NCBI GenBank assembly: GCA_001785735.1
Contig: MFUP01000008.1
Location: 1 to 46,086 of the forward strand
From: Candidatus Nomurabacteria bacterium RIFCSPLOWO2_01_FULL_33_24
GTDB taxonomy: Bacteria > Patescibacteriota > Minisyncoccia > Phycocordibacterales > MFUP01
DNA length: 46,086 nucleotides
Reading direction: 5' to 3'
Part shown: in pieces, positions 3,764-46,086 of the stretch
Numbering within the stretch: position 1 is the first letter of the stretch
How the letters are laid out: the number at the start of each line of letters is the position of its first letter
Translations under genes and position numbers: made by a program
The notes under the pieces: generated by a model
Databases searched by the model: none
Seen by the model: the letters and a program-made list of their open reading frames with translations, nothing else
Told to the model about the DNA's origin: nothing

Positions 3764-4852
3764 ATGCGTTTTATCCCAACTAATATCATCTTGTATTTTT
3801 TTCTAGTAATTCTCGGAATGAGCGGAGTTGTTTTTGCCGTTATTTGGCCTCAAGCAATAGGTTTCTATATCTTTATTGCCTTTGCTGCCGTTGGAGGGCT
3901 TGGGGTTGCCGTTAATATTTATTACACCAAAAGAAGAAACAAACAACTTATTTGTCCTATTGGTTCTGATTGTAATGCTGTTATTAATAGTCAATACGCT
4001 AAGTTTCTAGGAATACCTCTAGAATATTGCGGAATGTTTTATTATGCGATTATTCTTATTTCTTATCTCTTTCTAATTTTTATTCCCCACATATTTTCTA
4101 ATAATTTATCGTCCGCTTTAATAATACTGACGGCTGGGGCTTTTCTTTTTTCTCTCTACCTCTTGTTTGTCCAAGCTTTTATTTTAAAGAAATGGTGTAT
4201 TTGGTGTCTTCTTTCTGCCATGCTTTCTATTGGAATTTTTATAGTTTCTTTGGCTAAGGTAGATTTTGCTGTGACTTTTTTTATGAAAGTGGAAACCATT
4301 ATTGAAATAATTCATACTCTTGGTTTTGTTATTGGAATGGGGGGGGCAACCATAACCCTCTTTCTTTTCTTTAAGTTTTTGCGTGATTTTAAGATTGATG
4401 AAACTGAATTAAAAATACTCCAAGGAATTTCAGAATTTGTCTGGCTCGGGTTGGTTCTTGTTTTAGTAAGCCAATTTATTTCTTATGTTGTTTATCCAAA
4501 TCTTTTAGCTTCGTCTGGTTTATTTTTAATTGAAACGCTAGCTCTTTTGGTGGTCGCTGTTACGGGAGCTATTTTACTAATAATTTTTGCTCCCTTGCTT
4601 TCCATCATTCCCTTTAGTAGTAGAGAGGATAAAAATAATAATCTTTCACCGCTTGAAACATTAAAAAAACCATTATTTGTTCTAGGAGCTATTACTGTCT
4701 CTTCTTGGTATTTTGCCTTTATTATGAATTATTTATCAGAATATAGTTTTTCAAATTTATTTCTAGTGTATCTAGTAGTTTTGATGATAGCCAGTTTTTT
4801 GTCTTTGCTCATAGAAAAAAATATTAACAAGAAGAATTTTGATATTTCCTAA
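3764..4852 (+). CDS. VKOR-family membrane thiol oxidoreductase with extended C-terminus
   Basis: A 362-aa polytopic membrane protein. The first half is a vitamin K epoxide reductase homologue: a loop with Cys64 and Cys70, then INSQYAKFLGIPLEYCG, and the redox CxxC at Cys145/Cys148 (WCIWC) in a later helix. Bacterial VKORs reoxidise periplasmic DsbA-like proteins by passing electrons to quinone. The second half (about 185-362) adds roughly five hydrophobic segments instead of the thioredoxin-like domain fused to many bacterial VKORs, and I do not recognise it. No DsbA-like partner is adjacent. A second, shorter VKOR lies at 38618. Family call is confident; the role of the extension is unknown. 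Confidence 0.9.
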   Translation: MRFIPTNIILYFFLVILGMSGVVFAVIWPQAIGFYIFIAFAAVGGLGVAVNIYYTKRRNKQLICPIGSDCNAVINSQYAKFLGIPLEYCGMFYYAIILISYLFLIFIPHIFSNNLSSALIILTAGAFLFSLYLLFVQAFILKKWCIWCLLSAMLSIGIFIVSLAKVDFAVTFFMKVETIIEIIHTLGFVIGMGGATITLFLFFKFLRDFKIDETELKILQGISEFVWLGLVLVLVSQFISYVVYPNLLASSGLFLIETLALLVVAVTGAILLIIFAPLLSIIPFSSREDKNNNLSPLETLKKPLFVLGAITVSSWYFAFIMNYLSEYSFSNLFLVYLVVLMIASFLSLLIEKNINKKNFDIS

Positions 4853-5822: not shown

Positions 5823-7322
5823 ATGACTATTTCTAAATCGGAATATATCATGTTTCTTAAACACCCGGCTTGGCTATGGTTAAAGAAACATGACAAAGAA
5901 AAAATTCCCGAACCCAACGCTATTCTTCAAGCATTATTTGATGACGGGAAACTTTTTGAAGAATATGCTGAAAAATTGTTTCCCCACGGGGTGAAATTAG
6001 GATTTACTGGTTATGGGGATTATCTTAGTCTTCCCAAGAGAACACAAGAGTTATTGGATAAAGGCGAAAAAACAATATTCCAAGGAAGATTTGAAGCCAA
6101 TGACATAACTTGTATTGTCGATGTGCTTGACAGGGTAAAAGATAATACTTTTGATCTCTATGAAATTAAATCAAGCACTAAAGCTAAAATAGATCACGAA
6201 CATGATCTTGCTTTTCAAGTTATTGTTCTTGAAAAAAGAGGATTGAAAATAAGAAATATTTCGGTTATTCATGTAAATAATGAGTACCAAAGAGACGGGA
6301 AGATTGATGTCAAACAACTCACTACCATCACAAATCTAAATGAAGAAGTGAGAGAAAAAATAGAAATTACTAAGGAAAAAATAAAAATGGCTCACGAAAT
6401 AGTAGCTCAAAAAGAAATGCCTGATCCCTCTCCGCGTTATGTTGGATTAGGAGCTTTAAAAGATTGGATGGAAATATATGAAATAATCAAAGGTAAACCA
6501 GAGAAATATAGCATTTATAATTTATGTTCCCCGGGAGTTAAGCGTCTTGGAGAATTAGAAGATTTGGGAGTCAAACTAATATCTGATATTCCAGATGATT
6601 TTAATCTTACTATTAAACAGCAAAGACAAACAATGGTCACCAAGAACGGATCCCGTCATCTTGAAAAAGAAAGTATTAAATCTTTTCTTAATGAGTTAAA
6701 ATACCCTCTTTATTTTTTGGATTACGAAACTTTTTCAGGAGTGATACCAGCCTTTGATGGGATCAGACCATATCAACAAATACCATTTCAATACTCTCTC
6801 CATATTTTAAGAAGCCCCGAAGCAGAATTAGAACATAAAGAATATTTACATACTGAAAATACTAATCCAATCAAACCACTAGTAGAACAATTAAAAAAAG
6901 ATATTGGAACAAAGGGGTCAATTTTGGTTTGGTATCAAGTTTTTGAAAAAGGACGAAACAAAGAAATGGGAGAGATGTTTCCAGTATATAAAGATTTTCT
7001 TACAGAGATAAATGAGAGAATTGTTGATTTAATGATTCCTTTTGCCGATGGTTGGTTTTGTGATAAGGAATTTTTTGGGAGCGCTTCCATTAAAAAAGTG
7101 CTTCCTGTAATTATTCCTAATTTATCTTATCAAGAGCTTGATATTCAAGAAGGAAATACGGCTCAACGAAAATGGATGGAGACAATAATTGATGGGAAAA
7201 ATAGTGATCTAAAAGAAAAAATTATGAATAATCTTATTGAATATTGTAAATTGGACACTTTAGCCATGTCAGAAATTTTTAAATATCTTCACAACTTGAT
7301 TGAGGAGGGAGGTATGATATAA
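5823..7322 (+). CDS. DUF2779 protein with PD-(D/E)XK nuclease-like N-terminal domain
   Basis: A 499-aa two-domain protein. The N-terminal half resembles RecB/Cas4-type PD-(D/E)XK nucleases: Asp100 in IVDVLD and Glu114-x-Lys116 in YEIKSST give the D...ExK signature. The C-terminal half is DUF2779, marked by FLDYETF (Asp300, Glu302, as in DEDD exonuclease motif I) and by PYQQIPFQYSLH. Such proteins are presumed to process DNA or RNA, but I know of no established substrate. A TATAAT box ends 6 nt before ATG 5823. No CRISPR repeats or cas genes lie nearby, so a CRISPR role is not supported. Family call is firm, activity inferred. Confidence 0.88.
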   Translation: MTISKSEYIMFLKHPAWLWLKKHDKEKIPEPNAILQALFDDGKLFEEYAEKLFPHGVKLGFTGYGDYLSLPKRTQELLDKGEKTIFQGRFEANDITCIVDVLDRVKDNTFDLYEIKSSTKAKIDHEHDLAFQVIVLEKRGLKIRNISVIHVNNEYQRDGKIDVKQLTTITNLNEEVREKIEITKEKIKMAHEIVAQKEMPDPSPRYVGLGALKDWMEIYEIIKGKPEKYSIYNLCSPGVKRLGELEDLGVKLISDIPDDFNLTIKQQRQTMVTKNGSRHLEKESIKSFLNELKYPLYFLDYETFSGVIPAFDGIRPYQQIPFQYSLHILRSPEAELEHKEYLHTENTNPIKPLVEQLKKDIGTKGSILVWYQVFEKGRNKEMGEMFPVYKDFLTEINERIVDLMIPFADGWFCDKEFFGSASIKKVLPVIIPNLSYQELDIQEGNTAQRKWMETIIDGKNSDLKEKIMNNLIEYCKLDTLAMSEIFKYLHNLIEEGGMI

Positions 7323-15811: not shown

Positions 15812-15832
15812 TAATAACCATTGATACTAACT

Positions 15833-16723
15833 ATGGCTAATAGGCACCTTTCAAGATCAATTGTTCTCCAAACTCTTTTTGAGTTGGATTTTGATGTTCA
15901 AAACCAAAAAAGTCCTCTTTCTATTTTAAACAGAAACACTAAAGATTTTGGTCCTGGGTTGGAAGATTCTTCTTTTATGGAGACGCTTCTCTTGGGTGTT
16001 TTAGAGAAAAAAAAATCTATTGACGAAATAATAGAAAAAGCTGCTCCCGAGTGGCCTCTTAATAAAATTTCAGGAGTTGACAGAAATGTTTTGCGTTTAG
16101 GATTATATGAACTTTTATTTAGTGATCATGATCAAGTTCCTCCAAAAGTAGCTATTAATGAATCAATTGAACTAGCTAAAAGTTTCGGAGGAGAAAGCAG
16201 TAGCAAATTTATTAATGGGGTTTTGGGAACTGTTTATAAAGAAATTGGGGAACCCGGAAAAGATCAGATAAGTAAAAAGAAAAAAGATGAACCAGTTGAT
16301 ATTTCTAAATTACCAATAAAAAGATTGGGAGGAGCAGTTATTTATACCAGAGACGGAGATGAAATAAAATTAGCCCTAGTCCACGATGTTTTTGGTTACT
16401 GGACTTTATCTAAGGGTGGAATTGAAGAAAAAGAAACAGATGAAGATGGAACAAAAAGAGCTATAAAAGAAGAAATTGGTCTTGATGTTAATATAAAAAC
16501 TAAACTTGGAGAAAATGAATACATTGCTTCTCATCCAGAAGAAGGAAAAATAAGAAAACAAGTAACTTATTTTATGGCCGAGTCAGTTTTTCAAGAATTA
16601 CAATTAGCAGAATCCGGAGGACTAGATGGTGCCAGATGGTTTAATTTAGAAGAAATAGGTGATCTTAAAATTTATGACGATATTCTTCCGCTTATTGCCA
16701 AGACTGTTGAAAAAATTACATGA
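15833..16723 (+). CDS. nusB: NusB antitermination factor fused to a Nudix hydrolase domain
   Basis: A 296-aa fusion. Residues 1-140 are NusB (RSIVLQTLFELDF, the ISGVDRNVLRLGLYELLF core, PPKVAINESIELAKSFGGESSSKFINGVLG), an rRNA antitermination and ribosome-assembly factor. A charged linker (KDQISKKKKDEP) leads to a Nudix fold (about 160-296) with a Nudix box at 195-217: GGIEEKE then RAIKEEIGL. The canonical REUxEE has become RAIKEE, so the first glutamate of the helix is Ala. Fusion into one frame is direct from the sequence; the Nudix substrate is unknown. ATG 15833 was preferred over TTG 15821 because it matches the NusB start. rnc overlaps its stop. Confidence 0.9.
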   Translation: MANRHLSRSIVLQTLFELDFDVQNQKSPLSILNRNTKDFGPGLEDSSFMETLLLGVLEKKKSIDEIIEKAAPEWPLNKISGVDRNVLRLGLYELLFSDHDQVPPKVAINESIELAKSFGGESSSKFINGVLGTVYKEIGEPGKDQISKKKKDEPVDISKLPIKRLGGAVIYTRDGDEIKLALVHDVFGYWTLSKGGIEEKETDEDGTKRAIKEEIGLDVNIKTKLGENEYIASHPEEGKIRKQVTYFMAESVFQELQLAESGGLDGARWFNLEEIGDLKIYDDILPLIAKTVEKIT

Positions 16724-19669: not shown

Positions 19670-22504
19670 TTATTCGATAGTAATAATCGGCGGGGAGATT
19701 TCTCCGTTTTTAGATATAATAACGGAATTTTGGGCGAAGTCTTCTTTCGAGAGGTTATTAATTTGCGAAATAGCTTCGTCTGTTTTGCTAATTTTAGGAT
19801 GACCATCAGAATCAATTTTAATGGGAATTATTTTCCCATTATTCCATTCGCCATTGTTTTTTAAAGATATCATTAACATCGCTGATGTTTCTAATGATTT
19901 ATCCCATCTAGAACTCTTGTCTCCAGCAAAATTGCCTAGTGAATAAGCAATAAGTTTTCCATTATAAAATTCCATCCCTCTTAAAATATGAGGACCAGAG
20001 CCAACTACTAAATCAGCTCCCGAATCAACAGCCACCCGGGCAGCTTTTCTCAAATTACCTCTGTCTTCATCCAAATAAAACTCATTACTATCAGGGATAT
20101 TTCCTTTATCTACCCCCTCCGCTCCCCCATGGAAGAGAGCGATTACTAAGTCAGCTTGTTTCTTGGCTTGTTTTATTAAATTTTCTATCTCATTATAATC
20201 TAATAATGAAGCGGATCTTGGACTTGTGGAAAATCCAACAATAGCAATGTCAAAATTGTCAATTTTTTTTGTGATAATATTTTTATCTCTTACAGAACTT
20301 AGGCCAGATCTATCTAAAACACTGATAGTATTTAAATAACCATCTTGCCCATAATCAAAATTATGATTATTAGATAGATTTATAACATCAAAGCCAGCTT
20401 GACTTAACTCATTAGCAAAAGAGGGAGATCCACGAAAAGTAAAACAAGTCTCTTTATTGAAATACTCATAGTCACATTTTGATGTGCCATTGTCGGTCAA
20501 GACTCCTTCAAGATTTCCAATCATGATATCTGGCTCTTTTAATACACTTTTTACATCACTAAAAATATCTTCTCCTAATTGGGTCTCCTTATTTGGAAAT
20601 GGAAAAATATCTCCCACCCAACCAATCTCAATACTTATTTCTCCCTTTTTATCATTGATTGTATTTTTTAAGAATAAATTAACAACATCTTCTGGGGGTG
20701 TTATTATCTCTGAACTTGTTAAACTAGGTTGATAAAATTGATTTAATTGAACAGTTTTTTTGATAATTTGTTTTATTTTTTTTTCTTCAATCTCTATTTC
20801 CAACATTAATCCTTTCATTGTTTTATCAGAGAAATATTGATCAAAAATAAAATTACCTAAACTATAAGCAATTATTCCACCATTATAAAATTCAGTTGCT
20901 TGTTCAACATGGGGATGATGGCCGATTATAATTTTAGCTCCGGAATCAATTGCTAAATGAGCTAATTTTTCTTGACGTTCATTATATTCAACATATTCAT
21001 CCCCAAAATGAAATGTTACCACTAATAAGTCTACCTGCTGACTTGCCCCCCTTATTGTCTCAGTAAAATCAAGACTGCGAGTTAAAAGAATTCCTGGTTT
21101 TTCTCCTTCAACCTTCATCCAATCAGGACCAACATCTGAAAAACCAAGAAAACCGATTTTTAAATCATTAACATTAATAATTTTTGGTCTTTTGGCTTCG
21201 GTTTCATTTAAACCACCACCAACGGCTAAAATATTACTCTCCTCAAATCTGGCTAATGTATCTTCAAAAGCCTCTTGTCCCCAATCGCCAGCATGATTAT
21301 TAGCTACTGACAACACATCAAAACCAGCCTTATCTAAAGTTGAAATTGTTTCTGGATTCATTCGAAAAGAATAAAGATTTCCCAAATCTTTTCCTTTATC
21401 GGAAACAGGTCCTTCCAAATTACCAAAAAGAATATCAGCCTTTTTCAAATATTCCATATTTTCAAACAAAAACATTTGGTTATCAAGAAAGTTTTTTTGG
21501 ATGGACATTTTTACTCCTCTATCCATCATAATGTCTCCGACAAACATAAGACTAGCTTTGCCACTTCTGTTTTCGTCAGCTTCTAAAATATTTTCTTTTA
21601 AAACTACAAGGCTAACCCCGTCATCTCCCCGTTCACCGTAATAAATATTATCTTTTAAATAAGAAAGAATAGTTTCAACATCTTTTATTCGATTAGTACT
21701 TTGGAGTAAAATAAGAGCAATTTCCCTATCTTTTTCTGAGGGCATTTCAAAAATAGATACTAAGGTTCTTTGAGCGGCGCTAGTATATCCAGTTTTTCCT
21801 CCAAGAAAATCCTTTTTTTGAGCAAGTCCATTAATATTTATCCAATTATCATTGCCAACTTTTACCGTAGTATTATTAGTTATTTCAAATATATAGTTTT
21901 CGTTTTTTCTGAGATAACGGGCAAATTTAAATAAATCAGAGGCAGTAGAAATGTTAGAACTAGATAAACCACTCGGGTCTTTAAAGGCGGTATTAAAAAG
22001 ACCAAGGGAGGCCGCTTTTTGATTCATTTTTATTATAAAGTTGTCTCTTCCTTCGTTTCTTGCTATTTTTTCAGCGGTAGAATTACTTGATTTTAAGAGT
22101 AGGGGATAAAGTAATTCATTGTCTTTGTCTGACAAAGAGGCTGTCATTAATTTTGAGACAGAAGCGATTGGAAAAGTTTCATTAATATTTTTACTTAAAA
22201 TAATTTCACCAGTTTCTAAATCCCCAACTAAATAAACAAGAGCGCTAACCTCAAGCGATTTATCGGGGTCTTTGGCAAAATAATCTAAGGGTGGTTCTGT
22301 TTTTTTGCTTGCTTGGGGGGGAGAAATTTGATCTTTTAAAATATCTTTTTTGACCAAGTTTTGTTTTAGTTCATTTATTTTTGAATCAGCAAATGAATAA
22401 ACAGTATTTCCTCCCTTGGCTAATAAAAAAACAATTAAAATTCCAATTATTATAGCCAAGATCACCCAAACCCCATGATGAATTATTTTTTTAGTTATTT
22501 GCAT
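19670..22504 (-). CDS. Membrane-anchored D,D-carboxypeptidase-like / double CapA fusion
   Basis: A 944-aa protein with an N-terminal transmembrane helix, then a penicillin-binding S11 domain (about 75-290) with SVSK (SxxK, Ser115), SSN (SxN, Ser139) and KTG (237-239). Two consecutive CapA/PGA_cap metallophosphoesterase-like domains follow, each with its own GD[IM] start (FVGDIMM; WVGDIFP), GNLEG and LSNNH or VANNHAGDWG motifs. S11 enzymes trim peptidoglycan; CapA proteins belong to polyglutamate capsule synthesis. The SxxK-SxN distance is only 24 residues against about 60-65 in typical enzymes. ATG 22504 was chosen over TTG 22513; a TATAAT box lies inside the RNase R 3' end. Confidence 0.88.
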   Translation of the reverse strand: MQITKKIIHHGVWVILAIIIGILIVFLLAKGGNTVYSFADSKINELKQNLVKKDILKDQISPPQASKKTEPPLDYFAKDPDKSLEVSALVYLVGDLETGEIILSKNINETFPIASVSKLMTASLSDKDNELLYPLLLKSSNSTAEKIARNEGRDNFIIKMNQKAASLGLFNTAFKDPSGLSSSNISTASDLFKFARYLRKNENYIFEITNNTTVKVGNDNWININGLAQKKDFLGGKTGYTSAAQRTLVSIFEMPSEKDREIALILLQSTNRIKDVETILSYLKDNIYYGERGDDGVSLVVLKENILEADENRSGKASLMFVGDIMMDRGVKMSIQKNFLDNQMFLFENMEYLKKADILFGNLEGPVSDKGKDLGNLYSFRMNPETISTLDKAGFDVLSVANNHAGDWGQEAFEDTLARFEESNILAVGGGLNETEAKRPKIINVNDLKIGFLGFSDVGPDWMKVEGEKPGILLTRSLDFTETIRGASQQVDLLVVTFHFGDEYVEYNERQEKLAHLAIDSGAKIIIGHHPHVEQATEFYNGGIIAYSLGNFIFDQYFSDKTMKGLMLEIEIEEKKIKQIIKKTVQLNQFYQPSLTSSEIITPPEDVVNLFLKNTINDKKGEISIEIGWVGDIFPFPNKETQLGEDIFSDVKSVLKEPDIMIGNLEGVLTDNGTSKCDYEYFNKETCFTFRGSPSFANELSQAGFDVINLSNNHNFDYGQDGYLNTISVLDRSGLSSVRDKNIITKKIDNFDIAIVGFSTSPRSASLLDYNEIENLIKQAKKQADLVIALFHGGAEGVDKGNIPDSNEFYLDEDRGNLRKAARVAVDSGADLVVGSGPHILRGMEFYNGKLIAYSLGNFAGDKSSRWDKSLETSAMLMISLKNNGEWNNGKIIPIKIDSDGHPKISKTDEAISQINNLSKEDFAQNSVIISKNGEISPPIITIE

Positions 22505-22505
22505 A

Positions 22506-24404
22506 CTAAACAAAATTATAATCTATAATTCTTCTTTTTAAATCAGTAGCGATAACTTTTATTTTTACCTGACTGCCGATTTTATATTTTTTTTCATCAA
22601 TATTTCTTAATTTTACCATTCCTTCGCACTTGGTTTCTTTTTCTTCAACATAAATACCCCAGTTAGTAATACTAGTAATAACTCCATTAAATACTTTACC
22701 AAGATGATAGGACATATATTCAACTTGCTTGTATTTTATCGAAGCCCATTGAGCTTCTTGAGCCTCTTTTTCTCTTTCTGATGAGATATTAGATATTTTT
22801 TCATAATATTTCCAATCTTCTTTATTTAGTCTTTTTCCTTCTAAATAATTATTTAATAATCGATGAACAATTATATCTGGATAACGACGAATAGGAGAAG
22901 TAAAGTGGGTATAATGATTAAAAGCCAATCCATAATGACCGATATTTTTAGTTGAGTAAATCGCTTTTGCCATTGAGCGAATAATAATTGTTTGGATAGC
23001 GTCAGCCTCTGGTTTATTATTTAAGCTTTTAAGAATATTGTTTATTTCTTTTGAAGGAATCATTCCGTTTATCATTTTAAACTTATACCCAAATCCTCTT
23101 AAAAAATCAGCCAATTCATTCATTTTTTCCTTGTTGGGTTTATCATGGATACGGTAAACAAAAAGATTTTTTTGGTTTTTTTTATCAACAAAACATTCAG
23201 CTACTTTTCTATTAGCTAAAAGCATAAATTCCTCAATTAACTTATTAGTATCGCCACGGACTTTTTTCTCAATTTTTATAGGGACTCCTTTTTTATCAAG
23301 AGTAAATCCTACTTCTTCTTTATCAAGATCAATTGATCCTTCGTTAAATCTTTTTTCCCTTAATTTTTTTGCTAATTTATTAATAATATCTAACTCTCTG
23401 TAAAACTTTCCGATTTTTTCATTTAAATTTTTCTGAGCTTCTTTATAAGTAAATCTTTTTTGAGAATGAATTATTGTTTTTCCAAACCACTTTTCTAAAA
23501 TATTCCCAGTACTATCTAAAATAAAAACAGCCCCGAAAGTTAATCGGTCTTCGTTTGGTTTTAAACTACAAAGATCATTAGATAACACCTCAGGAAGCAT
23601 CGGGATAGTTCTGTCAACCAAATAAACAGAAGTGGCTCTTTTTAGAGCCTCTTTATCTAAAACTGAATCTGCTTTGACATAATAAGAAACATCGGCAATG
23701 TGAATTCCTATTTCATATTTATTCTTCTCCAATTCTTTGAAAGAAAGAGCATCATCAAAGTCTTTTGCGTCATCCGGGTCAATAGTGAAGGTTAATGTTT
23801 TTCTAAAATCTTTTCGTTTTCCTATTTCTATTTCAGTTTGTGAAGTATTTTGAGATTGTTGAAAGATTAAGTTTACTGATTCTTCCACTGGAATAGGGAA
23901 TTGTTCAGAAAATCCTTTTTCTAAAGCAATTGCTTGCATCTCTGCCTCGTTTTCTTGTGGTTTCCCTAAAATTTTTATTATTTCTCCAATAGGATATCTA
24001 TTTGGTTTCCAATCAACTATTTTTCCAAAAATCAAATCACCAATTTTTCCTTTTTTCAATTTATCTACAGGAATAAAAATATTGGCGTACATTTTTTGGT
24101 TATTAGGAATTAAAAAGAAATTACCATTCTTTTTTTCTAAAACACCAGCAAAACCAACATTGGATCTTTTTGTTATTTCTATTATTTCGCCACTTTTTCT
24201 TCGCCCTCCTTTTTTAGAATGAAGTAAAATTTTTACTTTATCTTTATGAAGAGCGGTATTTAAAAGATTAGGAGCTATTTCTATATCATCTTCTAATTGA
24301 TCAACCTCAACATAACCCACCCCCTTAGAAGTCAAAAAAAGTGTTCCCTCGAGATATTTTGATTCCCTAATTGTTTTCCTTTTGGGTCTTGTTTTTCTCT
24401 TCAT
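22506..24404 (-). CDS. rnr: RNase R / RNase II-family 3'-5' exoribonuclease
   Basis: A processive 3'-5' exoribonuclease, 632 aa. After a basic N-terminus (KRKTRPKRKTIRESKY) and cold-shock-type RNA-binding domains comes the RNB catalytic domain with FTIDPDDAKDFDDALS, whose aspartates hold the catalytic metal, and FTSPIRRYPDIIVHRLL. A C-terminal S1 domain follows (GVITSITNWGIYVEEKETKCEGMV). Size lies between E. coli RNase II (644) and RNase R (813); the basic N-terminus favours RNase R. ATG 24404 was chosen because a TATATT box (24411-24416) lies 6 nt upstream; the longer frame from TTG 24422 would overlap it. Confidence 0.92.
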   Translation of the reverse strand: MKRKTRPKRKTIRESKYLEGTLFLTSKGVGYVEVDQLEDDIEIAPNLLNTALHKDKVKILLHSKKGGRRKSGEIIEITKRSNVGFAGVLEKKNGNFFLIPNNQKMYANIFIPVDKLKKGKIGDLIFGKIVDWKPNRYPIGEIIKILGKPQENEAEMQAIALEKGFSEQFPIPVEESVNLIFQQSQNTSQTEIEIGKRKDFRKTLTFTIDPDDAKDFDDALSFKELEKNKYEIGIHIADVSYYVKADSVLDKEALKRATSVYLVDRTIPMLPEVLSNDLCSLKPNEDRLTFGAVFILDSTGNILEKWFGKTIIHSQKRFTYKEAQKNLNEKIGKFYRELDIINKLAKKLREKRFNEGSIDLDKEEVGFTLDKKGVPIKIEKKVRGDTNKLIEEFMLLANRKVAECFVDKKNQKNLFVYRIHDKPNKEKMNELADFLRGFGYKFKMINGMIPSKEINNILKSLNNKPEADAIQTIIIRSMAKAIYSTKNIGHYGLAFNHYTHFTSPIRRYPDIIVHRLLNNYLEGKRLNKEDWKYYEKISNISSEREKEAQEAQWASIKYKQVEYMSYHLGKVFNGVITSITNWGIYVEEKETKCEGMVKLRNIDEKKYKIGSQVKIKVIATDLKRRIIDYNFV

Positions 24405-26190: not shown

Positions 26191-26670
26191 ATGTCCATAG
26201 TTGGAGAGATTTTAAGAGAGCTTTGGGATAAGGAAATAAAATATAAAGGTATGTCCGTTAATCTTTTCGGTATTCCTCGTTTGGGAATTTATTCAAAAAG
26301 AACCCTACGTTCCACCGTTGACCGTTTGTTTAAGGATAAGTTAGTCAGAAAAGAATTGAACGGTTTTATCATAACCATTAATGGGAAAAAATATTTAAAG
26401 AAAAAAGAAGATTCACTTAAGTCTTTTTCAAAACTTCCCATAAAAGATTCATCTAAAAATCTTTTAGTAATGTTTGACGTGCCGGTGGCTCAAAAAGCCG
26501 AAAGGGAATGGCTTCGTTTTCATTTGAAAAAATTTGGTTATATTATGATTCAAAAAAGCGTATGGGTTGGACCGTCGCCCTTACCCACAGACTTTCTTTT
26601 GTACTTGAAAGAAATAAAACTCAAAAATTACATTAAAACCTTTAAACTTACCAACCCATATAAAAAATGA
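26191..26670 (+). CDS. PaaX-like regulator with Cas2-type C-terminal fold
   Basis: A 159-aa protein. The N-terminal part (about 1-85) looks like a winged helix (GIPRLGIYSKRTLRSTVDRLFKDKLVRKELNGFIITINGKKYL). The C-terminal part NLLVMFDVPVAQKAEREWLRFHLKKFGYIMIQKSVWVGP has the beta-alpha-beta start shared by PaaX C-terminal domains and Cas2. Such proteins are often labelled Cas2 in CPR genomes, but there is no CRISPR array here and the fused wing points to a regulator. Palindromes with TGACACA arms flank the gene on both sides. It is probably autoregulated, which is inference. Confidence 0.75.
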   Translation: MSIVGEILRELWDKEIKYKGMSVNLFGIPRLGIYSKRTLRSTVDRLFKDKLVRKELNGFIITINGKKYLKKKEDSLKSFSKLPIKDSSKNLLVMFDVPVAQKAEREWLRFHLKKFGYIMIQKSVWVGPSPLPTDFLLYLKEIKLKNYIKTFKLTNPYKK

Positions 26671-36468: not shown

Positions 36469-38550
36469 ATGGTAAAAACAGGTATTGTTAACAAGGCAGT
36501 TAAAAAAAGATTAACTTTTCATGAAGCCAAAGAGGCTCTCAAAAATATTAAAAATATTTTAACAAAGGAACAATTTTTATTTTCAGGAGCGATCCTTCAA
36601 GAATCTAAGGCCTCCGGTTTTTATGGAGTTGTTTCTTTTAATTGTAAATCTACCTCAAAAAAAGCTCATGAATTTTTAATTTTTATGGGTTTTCCAAAAT
36701 CAAAAACTAGCTGTTCAAAAGGAAAAATAAGGTTGTTTCAATTAATTCCTGACAAAATTATCCACCCGAAAAAGAAACAATCAGACCAGTTTCTAAAAGG
36801 AAAAACTTTTCTTCAAACAAAGATAACTGAAGTAGAAGAGAAAAAAGAAGTTCCGTCACCAAAAAACAAAAGAGAAAAAATTCCAGCTGACTCTAAAACT
36901 TTTGAATATGCCAAAATGGTTGAAAACTTAATTGGGAATATATTTAAAAAATATAGCATCCCAATCATTTGGAGTAGTAACGTAACTCAAAAAGATTCAA
37001 AAACCACTGACAGCAAAAAATTCAGATTTTCTAAAAAGAGCCTGGTAGTCAGAGCAAAAAAAGCTTTAAGAAGGGCGGGATTTGATGATATTAGTGTCGC
37101 TGACAATAGTCAGCCAGCTACTAGTTTAAAAGAGGAAATTCACGAAATAGAAGTGTTGCTTATTATGCCAACAGAAAAGGGAGAAAAAAATAATTTAACT
37201 CCCGATCTTGAAATAGTTGAGATGGATGAAAAAAAAGAACAAATTTTTTCTCCTAGCGAATATTCACCAAAAAAAATTCTTCAGATTACTGGAAAAATGA
37301 GAGCAATGCAAATTTTAGATATCATTGAAAATAAACTCAATATTAAGAGTTTTGGGGAAAGTATTAATTCTTATTTGTCAGGAAAATTAGTATCTTATAA
37401 GACTGGATATATTAGGTTGAAATTTAAAATTGTTAACCCCAATGATTTTAGTGTTCAAAGTGTATTTGAGTTTTTTAGGCAACAGAAATTTGGAGCTTTT
37501 ATCAAAAATGATTTTCTCTATATTTCTTTGTGGGAAGGGCCATATTTAATCATCAATAGTCCAAACAAATTAAAAAAGGAAATTAATATGGAAAAAAAAG
37601 AAAATCCCATTATTCCCTCGCTGTATGAAGCCAGAAAAATGATTCGTGATATTGTTCGGAAAAGTACTTTTCGTTTCAATCTTGCTTTTCCGGTTTTTGA
37701 TTTTTCCAAGAACAACAAGAAAGATATTGGAATAGCAATGAAGTTTTCTAACAGAGAGGAGTTAGAACAGGTAAAAACTCTTTTTGACGAGAATCTTTTT
37801 AAGGTAATCTCGAATTCAGAAAGTTTATTGCTAAAAGTCTTGTGGTTATTTGAGGTTAATCTTCCCAAAATTCCTCAAGAAAAAAAAGGATATCCTTTAA
37901 AAGATGAAATTATCCGAGGAAAAAACTCAAATGAATTGATAACAATATTGAAAGATATTGTGAATAAAGAAAGAATTAAACTTTCTCGTCCTATTAGAAT
38001 TTTTTCAAGAGGGATAAAAATGAGAACCTTCAGAACAGGATCTGCTTACAGATTGAAAAATATATTAATAAAAAAAGGTTTTGATGCCAGAATAGCCAAA
38101 ACTAAAGGAATCATAGGAAAAGAATTGATTGTTAATATAATTTTACCAACTACAATGACGACTACCAGGCAAAGAGGGAAAGCTGTAATTATCCCAATCA
38201 AATCTCAAAAAAAGGATAAAAAAGCAAGAAAAAAAAGGAACTCCCCCCGGACTGAATCTGTTTTGGTTAAATCAATTAAAGAAGCAATCAAAAACGACCG
38301 CGAGCTTCAGGAAGAGATTTTAACAATTATAGATCAAGATTTAATTGAGAAAATTTCGCCGCCACCATTGGTTCCGGATCCAATGGTTTTTTTAAAAAAT
38401 ATCTTTAAAAAGGCAAAGGAAAATAATTTTTTTATCTCGTTTGAGTTAGGGGTAATTAAATTCCTTAAAAGTTCCGGAATAGTGACTTCTGAAGTTACTG
38501 GTCCAGAATTAGAAAACTTTCTAAAGGAAGTTACAAAGATGTCTTATTAA
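36469..38550 (+). CDS. 693-aa protein with five degenerate repeats, unrecognised
   Basis: A highly basic soluble protein with no signal peptide or membrane span. I see five segments of about 75-90 residues (about 17-93, 145-234, 275-356, 386-463, 487-560) with one pattern: a helix (EALKNIKNIL; KMVENLIGNI; QILDIIENKL; RKMIRDIVRK; ITILKDIVNK), a strand with basic or aromatic residues, a second helix often ending in xxGF or xxF (LIFMGF; LRRAGF; FRQQKF; LFDENLF; LIKKGF), and a final hydrophobic strand. Lys-rich linkers join them, and a helical tail (about 635-690) follows. The basic character suggests nucleic-acid or ribosome binding. No family is recognised. Confidence 0.75.
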   Translation: MVKTGIVNKAVKKRLTFHEAKEALKNIKNILTKEQFLFSGAILQESKASGFYGVVSFNCKSTSKKAHEFLIFMGFPKSKTSCSKGKIRLFQLIPDKIIHPKKKQSDQFLKGKTFLQTKITEVEEKKEVPSPKNKREKIPADSKTFEYAKMVENLIGNIFKKYSIPIIWSSNVTQKDSKTTDSKKFRFSKKSLVVRAKKALRRAGFDDISVADNSQPATSLKEEIHEIEVLLIMPTEKGEKNNLTPDLEIVEMDEKKEQIFSPSEYSPKKILQITGKMRAMQILDIIENKLNIKSFGESINSYLSGKLVSYKTGYIRLKFKIVNPNDFSVQSVFEFFRQQKFGAFIKNDFLYISLWEGPYLIINSPNKLKKEINMEKKENPIIPSLYEARKMIRDIVRKSTFRFNLAFPVFDFSKNNKKDIGIAMKFSNREELEQVKTLFDENLFKVISNSESLLLKVLWLFEVNLPKIPQEKKGYPLKDEIIRGKNSNELITILKDIVNKERIKLSRPIRIFSRGIKMRTFRTGSAYRLKNILIKKGFDARIAKTKGIIGKELIVNIILPTTMTTTRQRGKAVIIPIKSQKKDKKARKKRNSPRTESVLVKSIKEAIKNDRELQEEILTIIDQDLIEKISPPPLVPDPMVFLKNIFKKAKENNFFISFELGVIKFLKSSGIVTSEVTGPELENFLKEVTKMSY

Positions 38551-38555
38551 AAGAC

Positions 38556-38583
38556 AAGGCGCCCAATTCGGGTGCCTTTTTAT
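38556..38583 (+). terminator. Terminator of the five-module gene
   Basis: AAGGCGCCC-AATTC-GGGTGCCTT (one G-T wobble) followed by TTTTATTT. Confidence 0.8.
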
Positions 38584-38617: not shown

Positions 38618-39166
38618 ATGGAAAGACAAGAAGCAACCCAAAGAAATATCCAAGAAAAATCAAAATTAAAAGGAAGAACTTTATTTATCATTTTGGCGGT
38701 TCTGGGGGCGGTAATAATGGGATATTTAATTTCTCTCCATTATACTAATCAAGCCAATTCTATCTGTGAATTTGGAGAGAAATTATCCTGTGATTTGGTT
38801 AATAAAAGTCATTACTCGGAAATATTAGGAATCCCTTTTTCTGTTTTGGGTTTTGTTTATTTTTTGGGAACTCTGGGGGCGGGGATTGGCTGGTATAACA
38901 GATTTACTCTCAAAAAAGTTATTTTCTTTTCAATTTTATTTCTCGGCCCCGCTCTCTATCTAACGGGAACTGAAATTTTTCTCATAAAAAGTTTTTGTCT
39001 TTTTTGTGAAATATCAAAAATTTTAATGATTAGCATTGTCATTAATTCCTACCTGGCCTTGAAACCAGAAAAATTTGATCATAAAGAACTAGTAGTTGGA
39101 ATGGTAATAGCGATATTTTTAGGAGGAGCTACTTACCTTCTTCATTCAATTACTTTGTTGAATTAA
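38618..39166 (+). CDS. VKOR-family protein, short form
   Basis: A 182-aa membrane oxidoreductase, the plain four- to five-helix VKOR core without fusion. The loop cysteines are Cys50 and Cys58 (SICEFGEKLSCDLVNKSHYSEILGIP) and the redox motif is CLFC (Cys127, Cys130). The N-terminal 20 residues are charged and cytoplasmic. It presumably supports disulfide formation in exported proteins together with an unlinked thioredoxin-like partner. It has the same core as the protein at 3764, but lacks that protein's long membrane extension. Its 3' end overlaps the convergent glycosylase gene by 17 nt. Confidence 0.92.
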   Translation: MERQEATQRNIQEKSKLKGRTLFIILAVLGAVIMGYLISLHYTNQANSICEFGEKLSCDLVNKSHYSEILGIPFSVLGFVYFLGTLGAGIGWYNRFTLKKVIFFSILFLGPALYLTGTEIFLIKSFCLFCEISKILMISIVINSYLALKPEKFDHKELVVGMVIAIFLGGATYLLHSITLLN

Positions 39167-41898: not shown

Positions 41899-44800
41899 AT
41901 GAAAATTAAGACAGAAAACCAAACATTAGAACCCAAAGAACAAGTTTCTCAATTTGAAGTGAATTTAAATTCAGAAAATAAAGAAGAAGAAGAAAAGGAT
42001 GTATTAGAAAAAGAAATTGAAAGAGAGATTGATCCAATTTTAGAAGTGCTTTGTCCAGAAGGGGAAGATTTTGATGTTTATAGAGAAAAAATACTTAACG
42101 AATTGTTTAATGACGCAGAAAAAATAAAAGTTATTCAGAATAAATTATATCAGAACTCAAAAGATTTTGTTGCCAATGCCAAACATATCTTAACCTCGCG
42201 ACTTCGCGCTGTTCTGGAGGATATTAATAAAAGTGTCGCCCATAATATGTCTATCGAAGATCAGGAAAAGAAAGATAATGCCATAAGAGCAAAAGCCGGA
42301 TTGCTTATTTCTGGGGAGGAGCTACCTGAATTTGCAAGACAACATTATGGATTGAGCTATTTAGACTCAAAACCCGAAAAGCTTATCAAAAAAAATATTG
42401 AAAAGTATATGGCTGAGTATAATACTAAAAAAATTGAAATAATTTTAGATAATCTGCATTCTTCTTATAAAATACCTAAAGAAAAAGATTTGCCAAATAA
42501 TATATTGCCAAGGTTAAATAATAGTTTTAATTACCAAGAGAAAATACAGGAAGAAGTGCTTCGTGGAAAGTTGCCATATTCAATTTTTTCTGGAAATCAA
42601 AATTTTTCTGGTTATACTCAAGATTTTGAAAAAAATGAGCTATTCAAAAAATTTATTCCAAAACTTCATTATAATCGAGATGTCATTAAGAGAATACGGT
42701 CAAATCAAACTTTTTTTGCTATAGCGATTAAAGAAAATACCCCTGAAGCCCAAATGATACAAAAGGTACTAGATATGGAAAACGACTATGAGGTAAATGA
42801 CTTACTAGGTGAAGAAATGAGCGATGAAGAGGTTTTAAGAACTTCAAATTTTGTTAAAGAAAAGGAAAAAGAAAATATTTTTTCACTTGATTATCATTCT
42901 CAGAGAATTCTTTTTAGGATTTTTACTGTAGAAGATTTTAAATATTTAATAAATGAAAAGAATACAGATTTGAATTATCTTTTTCCTGAAAATTTACCCA
43001 TTGAAAGTAAACCAGAGATTCGAAAATATTTTAAGGAATTATGGAAAAGTCATATTTCAGAGTTGAATTTTAATAGCTCAAACAATTCATATAATACAAG
43101 TGAAAACATGAAGAAAGTTTATTCGTGTTTTAGTTTGGATGATTTTGAAGAATTTTTTCTTAAAAACATTCCAATAAACACAGATTTAGTCAACACAGAA
43201 ATGCTGACAGGATTACTTAATTCCCCAAATATTACTGCATCCAAAAAACTCAGATCTGCATTAGAGACAAAACTAGCGAATGACTTAAATAGAAAATATA
43301 TTTCCAGCACAAATGAAACTCTTATAGAAGAAGGAGCATTTCGGAAAGAATTTTTAGAACAGCCAGGAATAAAAGAAAAAGGTTTTGAAATGTTAAAAAC
43401 AAAACTTAAAGGAGGAAACTTGGATGATTCTATAAAAATATTAACACTACTTCCTGTAGAGAAGGCCAGCCTTGATTCAGAAGAAATCAGAGAACTAGCA
43501 ATAGAAGGAATTACAAAATTGAAATTAGATGGTTGGCATGACCTTAACTCTTCATATCTCGAAAACCATTATTCAAAAGTGAGAAAAATATCAGAATATA
43601 TTAAAATCCCAGAATATTTTTTAAAATCAGAAGAAGTAATAAACAATATTAAAACTTCTAAAATTGAGAGTATTAAGATTGTGGGGAAAAAAATAATTAG
43701 GCAAGTTTTTAATTCTTCAGAGCCGGAGGTTATTTATGAAAAAATACTTGAGCGTTTAGAAGAGATAAAAGATTATAAAAAAATAATTACAAACGAAGAT
43801 TGGCTTATCCTGTATCTTTCCAAATTTGAAGAACATGGAACTTTAGAAGAAAAAAAAGAGTTCGCAACTTTTATAGAAAAGATTTCAGAAAATGTGCCTC
43901 ATGATTTTGCGTGGAAAAACTTCAAGTATCTTTATGAAAAATTTAGTGTGTTATCCAGCGTTGAAATGGAAAGACAAAGAATTTTCATTCAGAAACTTGT
44001 ACCACACCTTTCCTCTGTTTTTTTAAAAAACATTTCATTTCCTAAAGCATTTGAACAGTTTTTATCATATACATCAGAACAACAAGATCAATTATTTAAT
44101 GTATTAAAAGAAAATCCTTCTTTTAATACTATTGATTTCTTAAAAAATAATTGGATGGAAAATCTTATAATTTATGTGAATGATGTTGAAGAAGCAGAGA
44201 ATTTAATATCAAAAGATGAAGAGAGAAAGAAAAAAGTTATAGAATTATTTTTAGGTGAATATAAGAATATTGCTCTTGATGGTATGAGTGGAGAATGGAA
44301 GAATTTTTTAAAAAGTAAAGATAAATTTTTCCCCCCAGGTATTTTTTTGATAAGTAAATTAATTAAGAATGTTGGTGGAGCGGGCAATTTAAAACACGTT
44401 GAATCACTTGGAAATCTTATATATCAGATGAATATTATTTTACAAAATCCCAAAACGACAGAAAAGACAAAGAATGAGATAAGAAGCTTATTATCAGAAC
44501 AAGAAAAAAAGTTTGAAAAAGAAAAATGGTCGCAAGATGACTGTTCAGAATTTTATAATCTCTCTCGGGATATTATGGAAGCGGCTCCGAGCTTATATAC
44601 TGCTTTTTCTCCAATATTTAAGCAAATGTCTCCAAAAGATATGAAAACTTTTATGAAAGAAGTTTTTCCATTTTATCAAGCGCAATTGGTAATTATTCAG
44701 GAAATTAGTGATGATGATGTTAAATATAAACCTAAAGAGCTTGTCAATGTTCGACAATCTTTAAAAGATATAGCAGAAAAAATGAAGCAATCTTTTGAAG

Positions 44801-46086
44801 ATAGGAAAAATATTTTTAATGAAGAAAGATCTCGACTTTTAGAAATTGTAAAAAGTGGTTTTAAGGATCGTTTTGGTCTTATTAAAATTCCAGAAGAATT
44901 TAGTAAAGATAATTTACGATCTATTCAAAATTGTATTCGATATATTGGCAATATTAGTGAGCGAAACATTAAAAGAGAAACAGTTATTGCATTTTATCTT
45001 GGCCTCGAACTTAATGATGAATGGGATGCATTTCGTCAAGGGAAAGAAATAAAACTTGAAGATTATTTTTCAGGGAAACAACTTGATTTAATTAGACCAT
45101 TAGTAGAGGAAAAAATGAAAGGCTATAAAATACTTGAAGAAACTTTAAGTATTTCAAAAGAACAGATGCCAAGATTTCAAGAAATACTGCAAGAAGATAC
45201 CATTAGTAATATGATGGGAAATATCCAAACCATTGATGTTAAATTAGGAAATGCAAAACGAAACATTGAAGAACTGGCTGATCTGGACATCTATCCCAAT
45301 CAGCAGGATAAAGATATCCTTGCCCTTCTTTTGAAAGAAGGAAAAATTGTCGGAGGAGTGTTGGCAAAAACATTTAGTAAAGTATCTGGCAAAAAAATAG
45401 AAATGACCCAAGTCGAAAAAGTGATCCAAATAGAGATAGCAAAAATATTTGGAGTAAGTCTATGGAATGCGGAGCAAGTGAAGAGAATACAAGATGCAAT
45501 TCAACCGTTTAGTTTGATTGCCAATATGATAAATAAAATGGAGGAAGAAAAAGTAGATGAAAATATAGAAGAGCTTCAAAAAAGACTCATTCCCCCTAAT
45601 AAAATTATAGAGATATTTAATCATCTTGGTGAAGAATTTAAACAAGAATCTGGCGCTATGGCATTATCTAAGGATATTACTTATCTTGAAAATTTGATAG
45701 TAAAAGATGATAAGAAAATAACCCCAGAAGAAAAAGCGGAAGTCCAATCTTACTTAGATGCGATAAAAGAAAAAATGAAAGATCTTGAAAATATACTTGA
45801 TAAAGTGAGAGAATATTTTAATAAAATAAAAAAAAGTGCTCATTTAGAAAATCATGAACTTTTAAAGAATCGTTTAGCTGATATTGAGAAGATTATCTAT
45901 TCGACAGATTCTAATGCAATGATTGTAAGTCATATGACAAAAAATTTGAATTTGATTATTGAAAATATGCGTGCCTGTCTTGGGTGTATGAGAAAAGAAA
46001 CAAACAATGACACAAATCTTGCTTTTAGCGATTATAATAAATTTTACATGATGAATCAGGGAGAGAAAGAAAAGGGTAGTATTTCA
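41899..46086 (+). CDS. Giant helical protein, partial (at least 1396 aa), unrecognised
   Basis: A single uninterrupted frame of 1396 codons from ATG 41899 to the window edge, so the 3' end is missing. There is no signal peptide or membrane span. The N-terminus is acidic and low-complexity (SENKEEEEKDVLEKEIERE). The rest is Lys/Glu/Ile/Leu/Phe-rich and looks like long helical bundles, with a few Cys and Trp. Near the edge the character changes: MRACLGCMRKETNN (Cys1360, Cys1363) followed by DTNLAFSDYNKFYMMNQGEK looks like the start of a compact domain. Size and uniform composition suggest a cytoplasmic scaffold or an effector-like protein. It has its own promoter, and no family is recognised. 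Confidence 0.85.
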   Translation, partial: MKIKTENQTLEPKEQVSQFEVNLNSENKEEEEKDVLEKEIEREIDPILEVLCPEGEDFDVYREKILNELFNDAEKIKVIQNKLYQNSKDFVANAKHILTSRLRAVLEDINKSVAHNMSIEDQEKKDNAIRAKAGLLISGEELPEFARQHYGLSYLDSKPEKLIKKNIEKYMAEYNTKKIEIILDNLHSSYKIPKEKDLPNNILPRLNNSFNYQEKIQEEVLRGKLPYSIFSGNQNFSGYTQDFEKNELFKKFIPKLHYNRDVIKRIRSNQTFFAIAIKENTPEAQMIQKVLDMENDYEVNDLLGEEMSDEEVLRTSNFVKEKEKENIFSLDYHSQRILFRIFTVEDFKYLINEKNTDLNYLFPENLPIESKPEIRKYFKELWKSHISELNFNSSNNSYNTSENMKKVYSCFSLDDFEEFFLKNIPINTDLVNTEMLTGLLNSPNITASKKLRSALETKLANDLNRKYISSTNETLIEEGAFRKEFLEQPGIKEKGFEMLKTKLKGGNLDDSIKILTLLPVEKASLDSEEIRELAIEGITKLKLDGWHDLNSSYLENHYSKVRKISEYIKIPEYFLKSEEVINNIKTSKIESIKIVGKKIIRQVFNSSEPEVIYEKILERLEEIKDYKKIITNEDWLILYLSKFEEHGTLEEKKEFATFIEKISENVPHDFAWKNFKYLYEKFSVLSSVEMERQRIFIQKLVPHLSSVFLKNISFPKAFEQFLSYTSEQQDQLFNVLKENPSFNTIDFLKNNWMENLIIYVNDVEEAENLISKDEERKKKVIELFLGEYKNIALDGMSGEWKNFLKSKDKFFPPGIFLISKLIKNVGGAGNLKHVESLGNLIYQMNIILQNPKTTEKTKNEIRSLLSEQEKKFEKEKWSQDDCSEFYNLSRDIMEAAPSLYTAFSPIFKQMSPKDMKTFMKEVFPFYQAQLVIIQEISDDDVKYKPKELVNVRQSLKDIAEKMKQSFEDRKNIFNEERSRLLEIVKSGFKDRFGLIKIPEEFSKDNLRSIQNCIRYIGNISERNIKRETVIAFYLGLELNDEWDAFRQGKEIKLEDYFSGKQLDLIRPLVEEKMKGYKILEETLSISKEQMPRFQEILQEDTISNMMGNIQTIDVKLGNAKRNIEELADLDIYPNQQDKDILALLLKEGKIVGGVLAKTFSKVSGKKIEMTQVEKVIQIEIAKIFGVSLWNAEQVKRIQDAIQPFSLIANMINKMEEEKVDENIEELQKRLIPPNKIIEIFNHLGEEFKQESGAMALSKDITYLENLIVKDDKKITPEEKAEVQSYLDAIKEKMKDLENILDKVREYFNKIKKSAHLENHELLKNRLADIEKIIYSTDSNAMIVSHMTKNLNLIIENMRACLGCMRKETNNDTNLAFSDYNKFYMMNQGEKEKGSIS

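Follow-up and report, generated by a model that had tools for sequence, protein, structure and literature searches.

The 46,086-nucleotide contig MFUP01000008.1 of Candidatus Nomurabacteria bacterium RIFCSPLOWO2_01_FULL_33_24 (GCA_001785735.1), the whole of which was analysed and is referred to here as the window, stems from a genome assembly of 398 kb in 16 contigs that is 67% complete. The GyrB encoded by this genome is nearest, at 65–73% identity, to records of Nomurabacteria, Taylorbacteria and other Paceibacterota, which places it among Patescibacteria of that kind. Positions 36469–38550 of the forward strand hold a gene which starts with ATG, terminates at TAA and encodes a protein of 693 aa that matches neither Pfam nor any other family. 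This reading frame has a codon score of 0.044, within the range obtained for the other genes of the window; the two alternative frames score −0.099 and −0.013. By codon preference this is a genuine gene, which confirms the original prediction of a 693-aa basic protein (pI 9.91) at this position. The reading frame begins 85 bases after the end of an upstream gene for a P-type cation ATPase, while its stop codon is directly followed by a hairpin resembling an intrinsic terminator (38556–38578, +; nine pairs, six of them G-C) and then by a run of T residues. Past this hairpin a VKOR-domain gene adjoins the locus; two VKOR-domain genes are present in this single 46-kb contig, at 3764–4852 and 38618–39166 (+). 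The neighbouring ATPase and VKOR genes do not give any pointer to a role in RNA or DNA transactions, or to another function, for the 693-aa protein.

Several further features were noted elsewhere in the window. At 15821–16723 (+) NusB and NUDIX domains occur in one frame of 300 aa, an apparent fusion, and genes for RNase III and an SMC-like protein follow directly. In a 499-aa protein encoded at 5823–7322 (+), DUF2779 occurs together with a Cas4-like nuclease region, and the 947-aa frame at 19670–22513 (−) contains two PGA_cap stretches in addition to a region resembling D-alanyl-D-alanine carboxypeptidase (S11). The open frame at 41899–46086 (+) continues beyond the end of the contig and spans at least 1396 aa, and its large product is without family assignment, the best Pfam match (E 0.007, below the cut-off) not being credible.

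The 693-aa protein carries a net charge of +8.1 per 100 residues, ranking third among the 25 window proteins that were compared. Higher values are found only for a tRNA (guanine-1)-methyltransferase and for the PaaX/Cas2-like protein encoded at 26191–26670 (+), which is small and very basic (pI 10.1) and matches the Cas2-like central domain of PaaX as well as Cas2. A transmembrane segment or signal anchor was not found in the 693-aa protein since the mean hydropathy of its 19-residue windows does not exceed 1.38.

The original prediction divided the protein into five copies of a degenerate module, all encoded on the forward strand. Module 1 comprises residues 17–94 (36517–36750), module 2 residues 145–234 (36901–37170), where the loop preceding the last strand is longer, module 3 residues 274–357 (37288–37539), module 4 residues 383–466 (37615–37866) and module 5, the best-defined copy, residues 485–561 (37921–38151). 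A basic linker with a net charge of +11 in 36 residues (residues 562–597; 38152–38259) and a C-terminal region that is predicted to be helical in a low-confidence model (residues 598–693; 38260–38547) complete the protein, and profile tests did not recover a sixth module in this C-terminal region. The charge is unevenly distributed: modules 1 to 4 have net charges of +8, +5, +5 and +3, respectively, and module 5 has +14 in 77 residues, while the N-terminal extension carries +5 and the helical C-terminus −2. Over the 113 residues formed by module 5 and its basic tail the net charge thus totals +25, and over the 144 that comprise the N-terminal extension, module 1 and its following linker it totals +19.

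Searches for relatives did not identify any. The whole protein matched nothing in Pfam (at E≤1), NCBIfam or PADLOC, PHROGs returned sub-threshold noise only, and PDB sequences, phages, plasmids, viral contigs and a scan of GTDB contigs were likewise devoid of matches. Searches of the tblastn type covered three sets with some overlap, namely the 60 closest relatives, 397 genomes at the level of the order and 380 at that of the phylum, and did not reveal a true relative, the only matches having E values of 0.003–0.08. The proteins behind these weak matches were three GreA proteins, a histidine kinase, a penicillin-binding protein, three frames unlikely to be genes and, in the phylum set, an HNH-like protein, and all were dismissed as chance. 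A profile of four modules produced chance matches only in 286 genomes of the class, these falling in unrelated proteins including a topoisomerase and permease-like and adhesin-like proteins, while a five-module profile found nothing else in the organism's own genome at E≤10. Profile matches in PHROG, Pfam and PDB at E 0.007–3 were short or single-member and were not considered credible. No syntenic relative was found beside the P-type ATPase or VKOR genes of other genomes, and no description of such an arrangement was found in the literature. The protein is therefore an orphan within the collections searched, which include several hundred Patescibacteria genomes. The claim that it belongs to no named family was borne out in that no family match emerged, for the whole protein to a known single-domain family or otherwise, although the fold predicted below is not wholly unknown.

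Direct comparison of the modules yields weak similarity, with pairwise z values of about 0–3.5, a best score for modules 4 and 5 that was reached by 3 of 1000 shuffles, and identities to module 5 of 24–27% in the alignment, in agreement with the low repeat identity originally noted. A leave-one-out test was therefore employed, in which a profile built from the remaining modules was asked to recover the omitted one. With hhalign, modules 1, 2, 4 and 5 each scored above all shuffles (0/200 as high) and aligned in full register over 53–62 columns. To provide a control with the helix and strand patterning of real proteins, 223 segments, each 90 residues long, were drawn from 24 other window proteins; scores as high as those of modules 1, 2, 4 and 5 were obtained by four, two, none and six of these segments, respectively. 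HMMER, applied with the rest of the protein masked, recovered the predicted place of module 2 (1/999), module 4 (21/999) and module 5 (11/999), while module 1 was weaker and, in a hand-aligned version, gave a top match that was out of register. The module limits were first set by eye in the original prediction, a choice for which the repeat tests do not fully compensate, and these tests are mutually dependent; taken together, the profile comparisons make it well supported that modules 1, 2, 4 and 5 are homologous copies of one module. Module 3 failed every sequence test (52/200 shuffles and 54/223 real segments scored as high with hhalign, and HMMER was also negative). In the low-confidence full-length model it does present the element order of the other modules, with a helix at 279–290, strands at 303–311 and 314–321, a second helix at 329–338 and strands at 342–346 and 349–353. 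Of the five copies originally proposed, four have thus been upheld by their sequences, while the fifth is plausible only, because module 3 is a candidate on the strength of its predicted helix and strand order, without support from its sequence.

AlphaFold2 applied to the whole protein on its own gave a model with a pLDDT of 36.2 and a pTM of 0.23, which served only for hints of secondary structure. When module 5 was predicted from an alignment supplied by modules 1, 2 and 4, a pLDDT of 85.9 and a pTM of 0.71 were reached; the internal alignment alone thereby lifts the prediction from a pLDDT of 36 (whole protein) to 85.9 (module 5), even if module 5's own sequence may account for part of this confidence. 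The model follows the order alpha-beta-beta-alpha-beta-beta (helix 3–16, strands 26–28 and 31–36, helix 39–51, strands 55–62 and 67–74), and so reproduces the succession of helix, strand, second helix ending near GF or F and final strand that had been read from the sequence. As modelled on module 5 alone, the module would be an (alpha-beta-beta)2 unit, each helix being followed by two strands, in a permuted ferredoxin-like layout, and modules 1–4 probably share this fold.

Based on these findings, the protein is most likely a lineage-specific, cytosolic tandem array of permuted ferredoxin-like modules that would bind nucleic acid or a ribonucleoprotein, for example the ribosome, in a multivalent manner, a reading to which we assign a probability of roughly 0.45. 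The array architecture is well supported. The binding activity is suggested by charge, and charge alone is weak evidence of nucleic-acid binding; we infer a soluble array that holds nucleic acid or ribonucleoprotein because the net charge is high and a membrane segment is lacking. Repeated duplication of a single module of approximately 80 residues, with a two-layer (alpha-beta-beta)2 fold, would have built the array, charged linkers would join the modules and the helical C-terminal region would close it. The tandem modules of this soluble protein could then grip an extended ligand, nucleic acid or ribonucleoprotein, at multiple points, the main electrostatic contacts being made by module 5 with its tail and by the N-terminal extension, module 1 and the ensuing linker, while the less basic modules 2–4 may space the array, contribute weaker contacts or pack on one another. 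Serial small alpha/beta modules on flexible linkers that afford multivalent binding are likewise a feature of RRM arrays, but the orphan shows neither their conserved RNP motifs nor their beta-alpha-beta-beta-alpha-beta order.

Inspection of the alignment revealed that basic residues are not kept at equivalent strand positions across the modules: the second strand is basic in module 2 and in module 5, where K517 and R519 lie, but not in modules 1 or 4. Because the basic residues are not fixed in this way, a serious rival is that the protein is a scaffold, the modules of which stack through their sheets or engage other proteins, with the basic charge being incidental. The last strand of the module, judging by the sequence and the model of module 5, is hydrophobic on both faces, which would suit packing of protein against protein, and the domain of GspL, which has the same permutation, dimerises via hydrophobic contacts (PMC6233222). 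The modest net charges of modules 3 and 4 also agree with a scaffold, but a simple scaffold would not call for nearly so much positive charge as module 5 and its tail carry, and we regard this explanation as possible, if rather unlikely.

It is more doubtful that the modules do not constitute a true repeat and that their similarity arises from generic helix and strand patterning together with composition. The low identities and weak pairwise scores are compatible with such an origin, as are the failure of module 3, the few unrelated real segments that score equally high and the capacity of AlphaFold2 to predict a small domain with clear patterning from sparse input. That four modules pass the leave-one-out test against both shuffles and real alpha/beta segments, in register over 53–62 columns, argues against it and renders it quite unlikely.

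The fold of module 5 introduces two further possibilities, since Foldseek, although it found no PDB match below 1e-3, returned domains of two known kinds, while viral structure models provided no named match. The weaker group consists of LAGLIDADG-type structures, namely a LAGLIDADG-associated intein (7qsu; probability 0.98, TMq 0.65), bI3 maturase, I-AniI and WhiA (3hyi; probability 0.75), with the PDB entries 7qsu, 2ab5, 3eh8 and 3hyi, the LAGLIDADG matches all having E values of 0.18 or worse. The modules might accordingly be degenerate LAGLIDADG domains, and the protein a domesticated, DNA-binding relative of the homing endonucleases. The model of module 5 has the alpha-beta-beta-alpha-beta-beta order of the LAGLIDADG core and of the N-terminal domain of WhiA, and WhiA itself shows that a member can be degenerate and no longer cleave (PMC3781837). 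Unlike these proteins, the orphan lacks a recognised HTH domain and a catalytic acid: neither a LAGLIDADG-like motif nor a conserved acidic residue was observed at the end of helix 1 in any of the modules, all of which were inspected, a Pfam scan of the single modules at E≤10 did not return LAGLIDADG, and every fold match to this group has an E value above 0.1. Up to five modules are present in the orphan, compared to one or two in LAGLIDADG proteins and WhiA. A LAGLIDADG protein with as many as five domains is not known to us. Membership was consequently rejected on motif and profile, the fold topology apparently being shared, and descent from this group is judged improbable.

It is scarcely credible that the orphan is a divergent relative of the pilus and secretion platform proteins GspL, GspM, PilN and PilO, for although the top PDB matches are the ferredoxin-like domains of XcpY (6ghu, E 0.012; 5n7l) and PulL (5hl8, E 0.025, TM 0.66), it has no transmembrane segment, its single modules do not match GspL, PilN, PilO or GspM in Pfam at E≤10, no pilus or secretion genes adjoin it, and a repeated array and basic charge fit such a role poorly. 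The likeness, which concerns the module 5 model only, lies in the (alpha-beta-beta)2 layout, described for GspL as a rare permutation of the ferredoxin fold (PMC6233222), in a similar length (78–81 residues) and in TM scores of 0.60–0.66, at sequence identities of 9–11%. The GspL, XcpY and PulL proteins carry this domain singly, behind a transmembrane helix and within a secretion machine, the helix of the platform proteins positioning the domain in the periplasm, whereas the orphan is a cytosolic tandem array; membership of the platform families was rejected because the membrane anchor and the family profile are absent, while the fold topology is shared. The orphan can be classified only as a tandem array of the permuted ferredoxin-like module.

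Regarding its wider meaning, the permuted ferredoxin-like module occurs elsewhere in homing endonucleases and in secretion and pilus proteins that are anchored in the membrane. That it has here been multiplied into a cytosolic, five-module array binding nucleic acid or ribosomes, representing a lineage-specific family in a reduced genome of the Paceibacteria type, is an unlikely proposition when taken in full. In terms of method, the use of the internal repeats of one orphan as its own alignment yielded a confident fold where prediction from a single sequence had failed. Orphans restricted to one lineage are not surprising in themselves among Patescibacteria. This genome, from a group of ultra-small organisms, retains a 2-kb gene without a match in the databases searched, even though most dispensable genes are lost from genomes of this kind. 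Should the array bind RNA, DNA or ribosomes, it would represent a new architecture for this task, derived from a fold that is rare in its permuted form.
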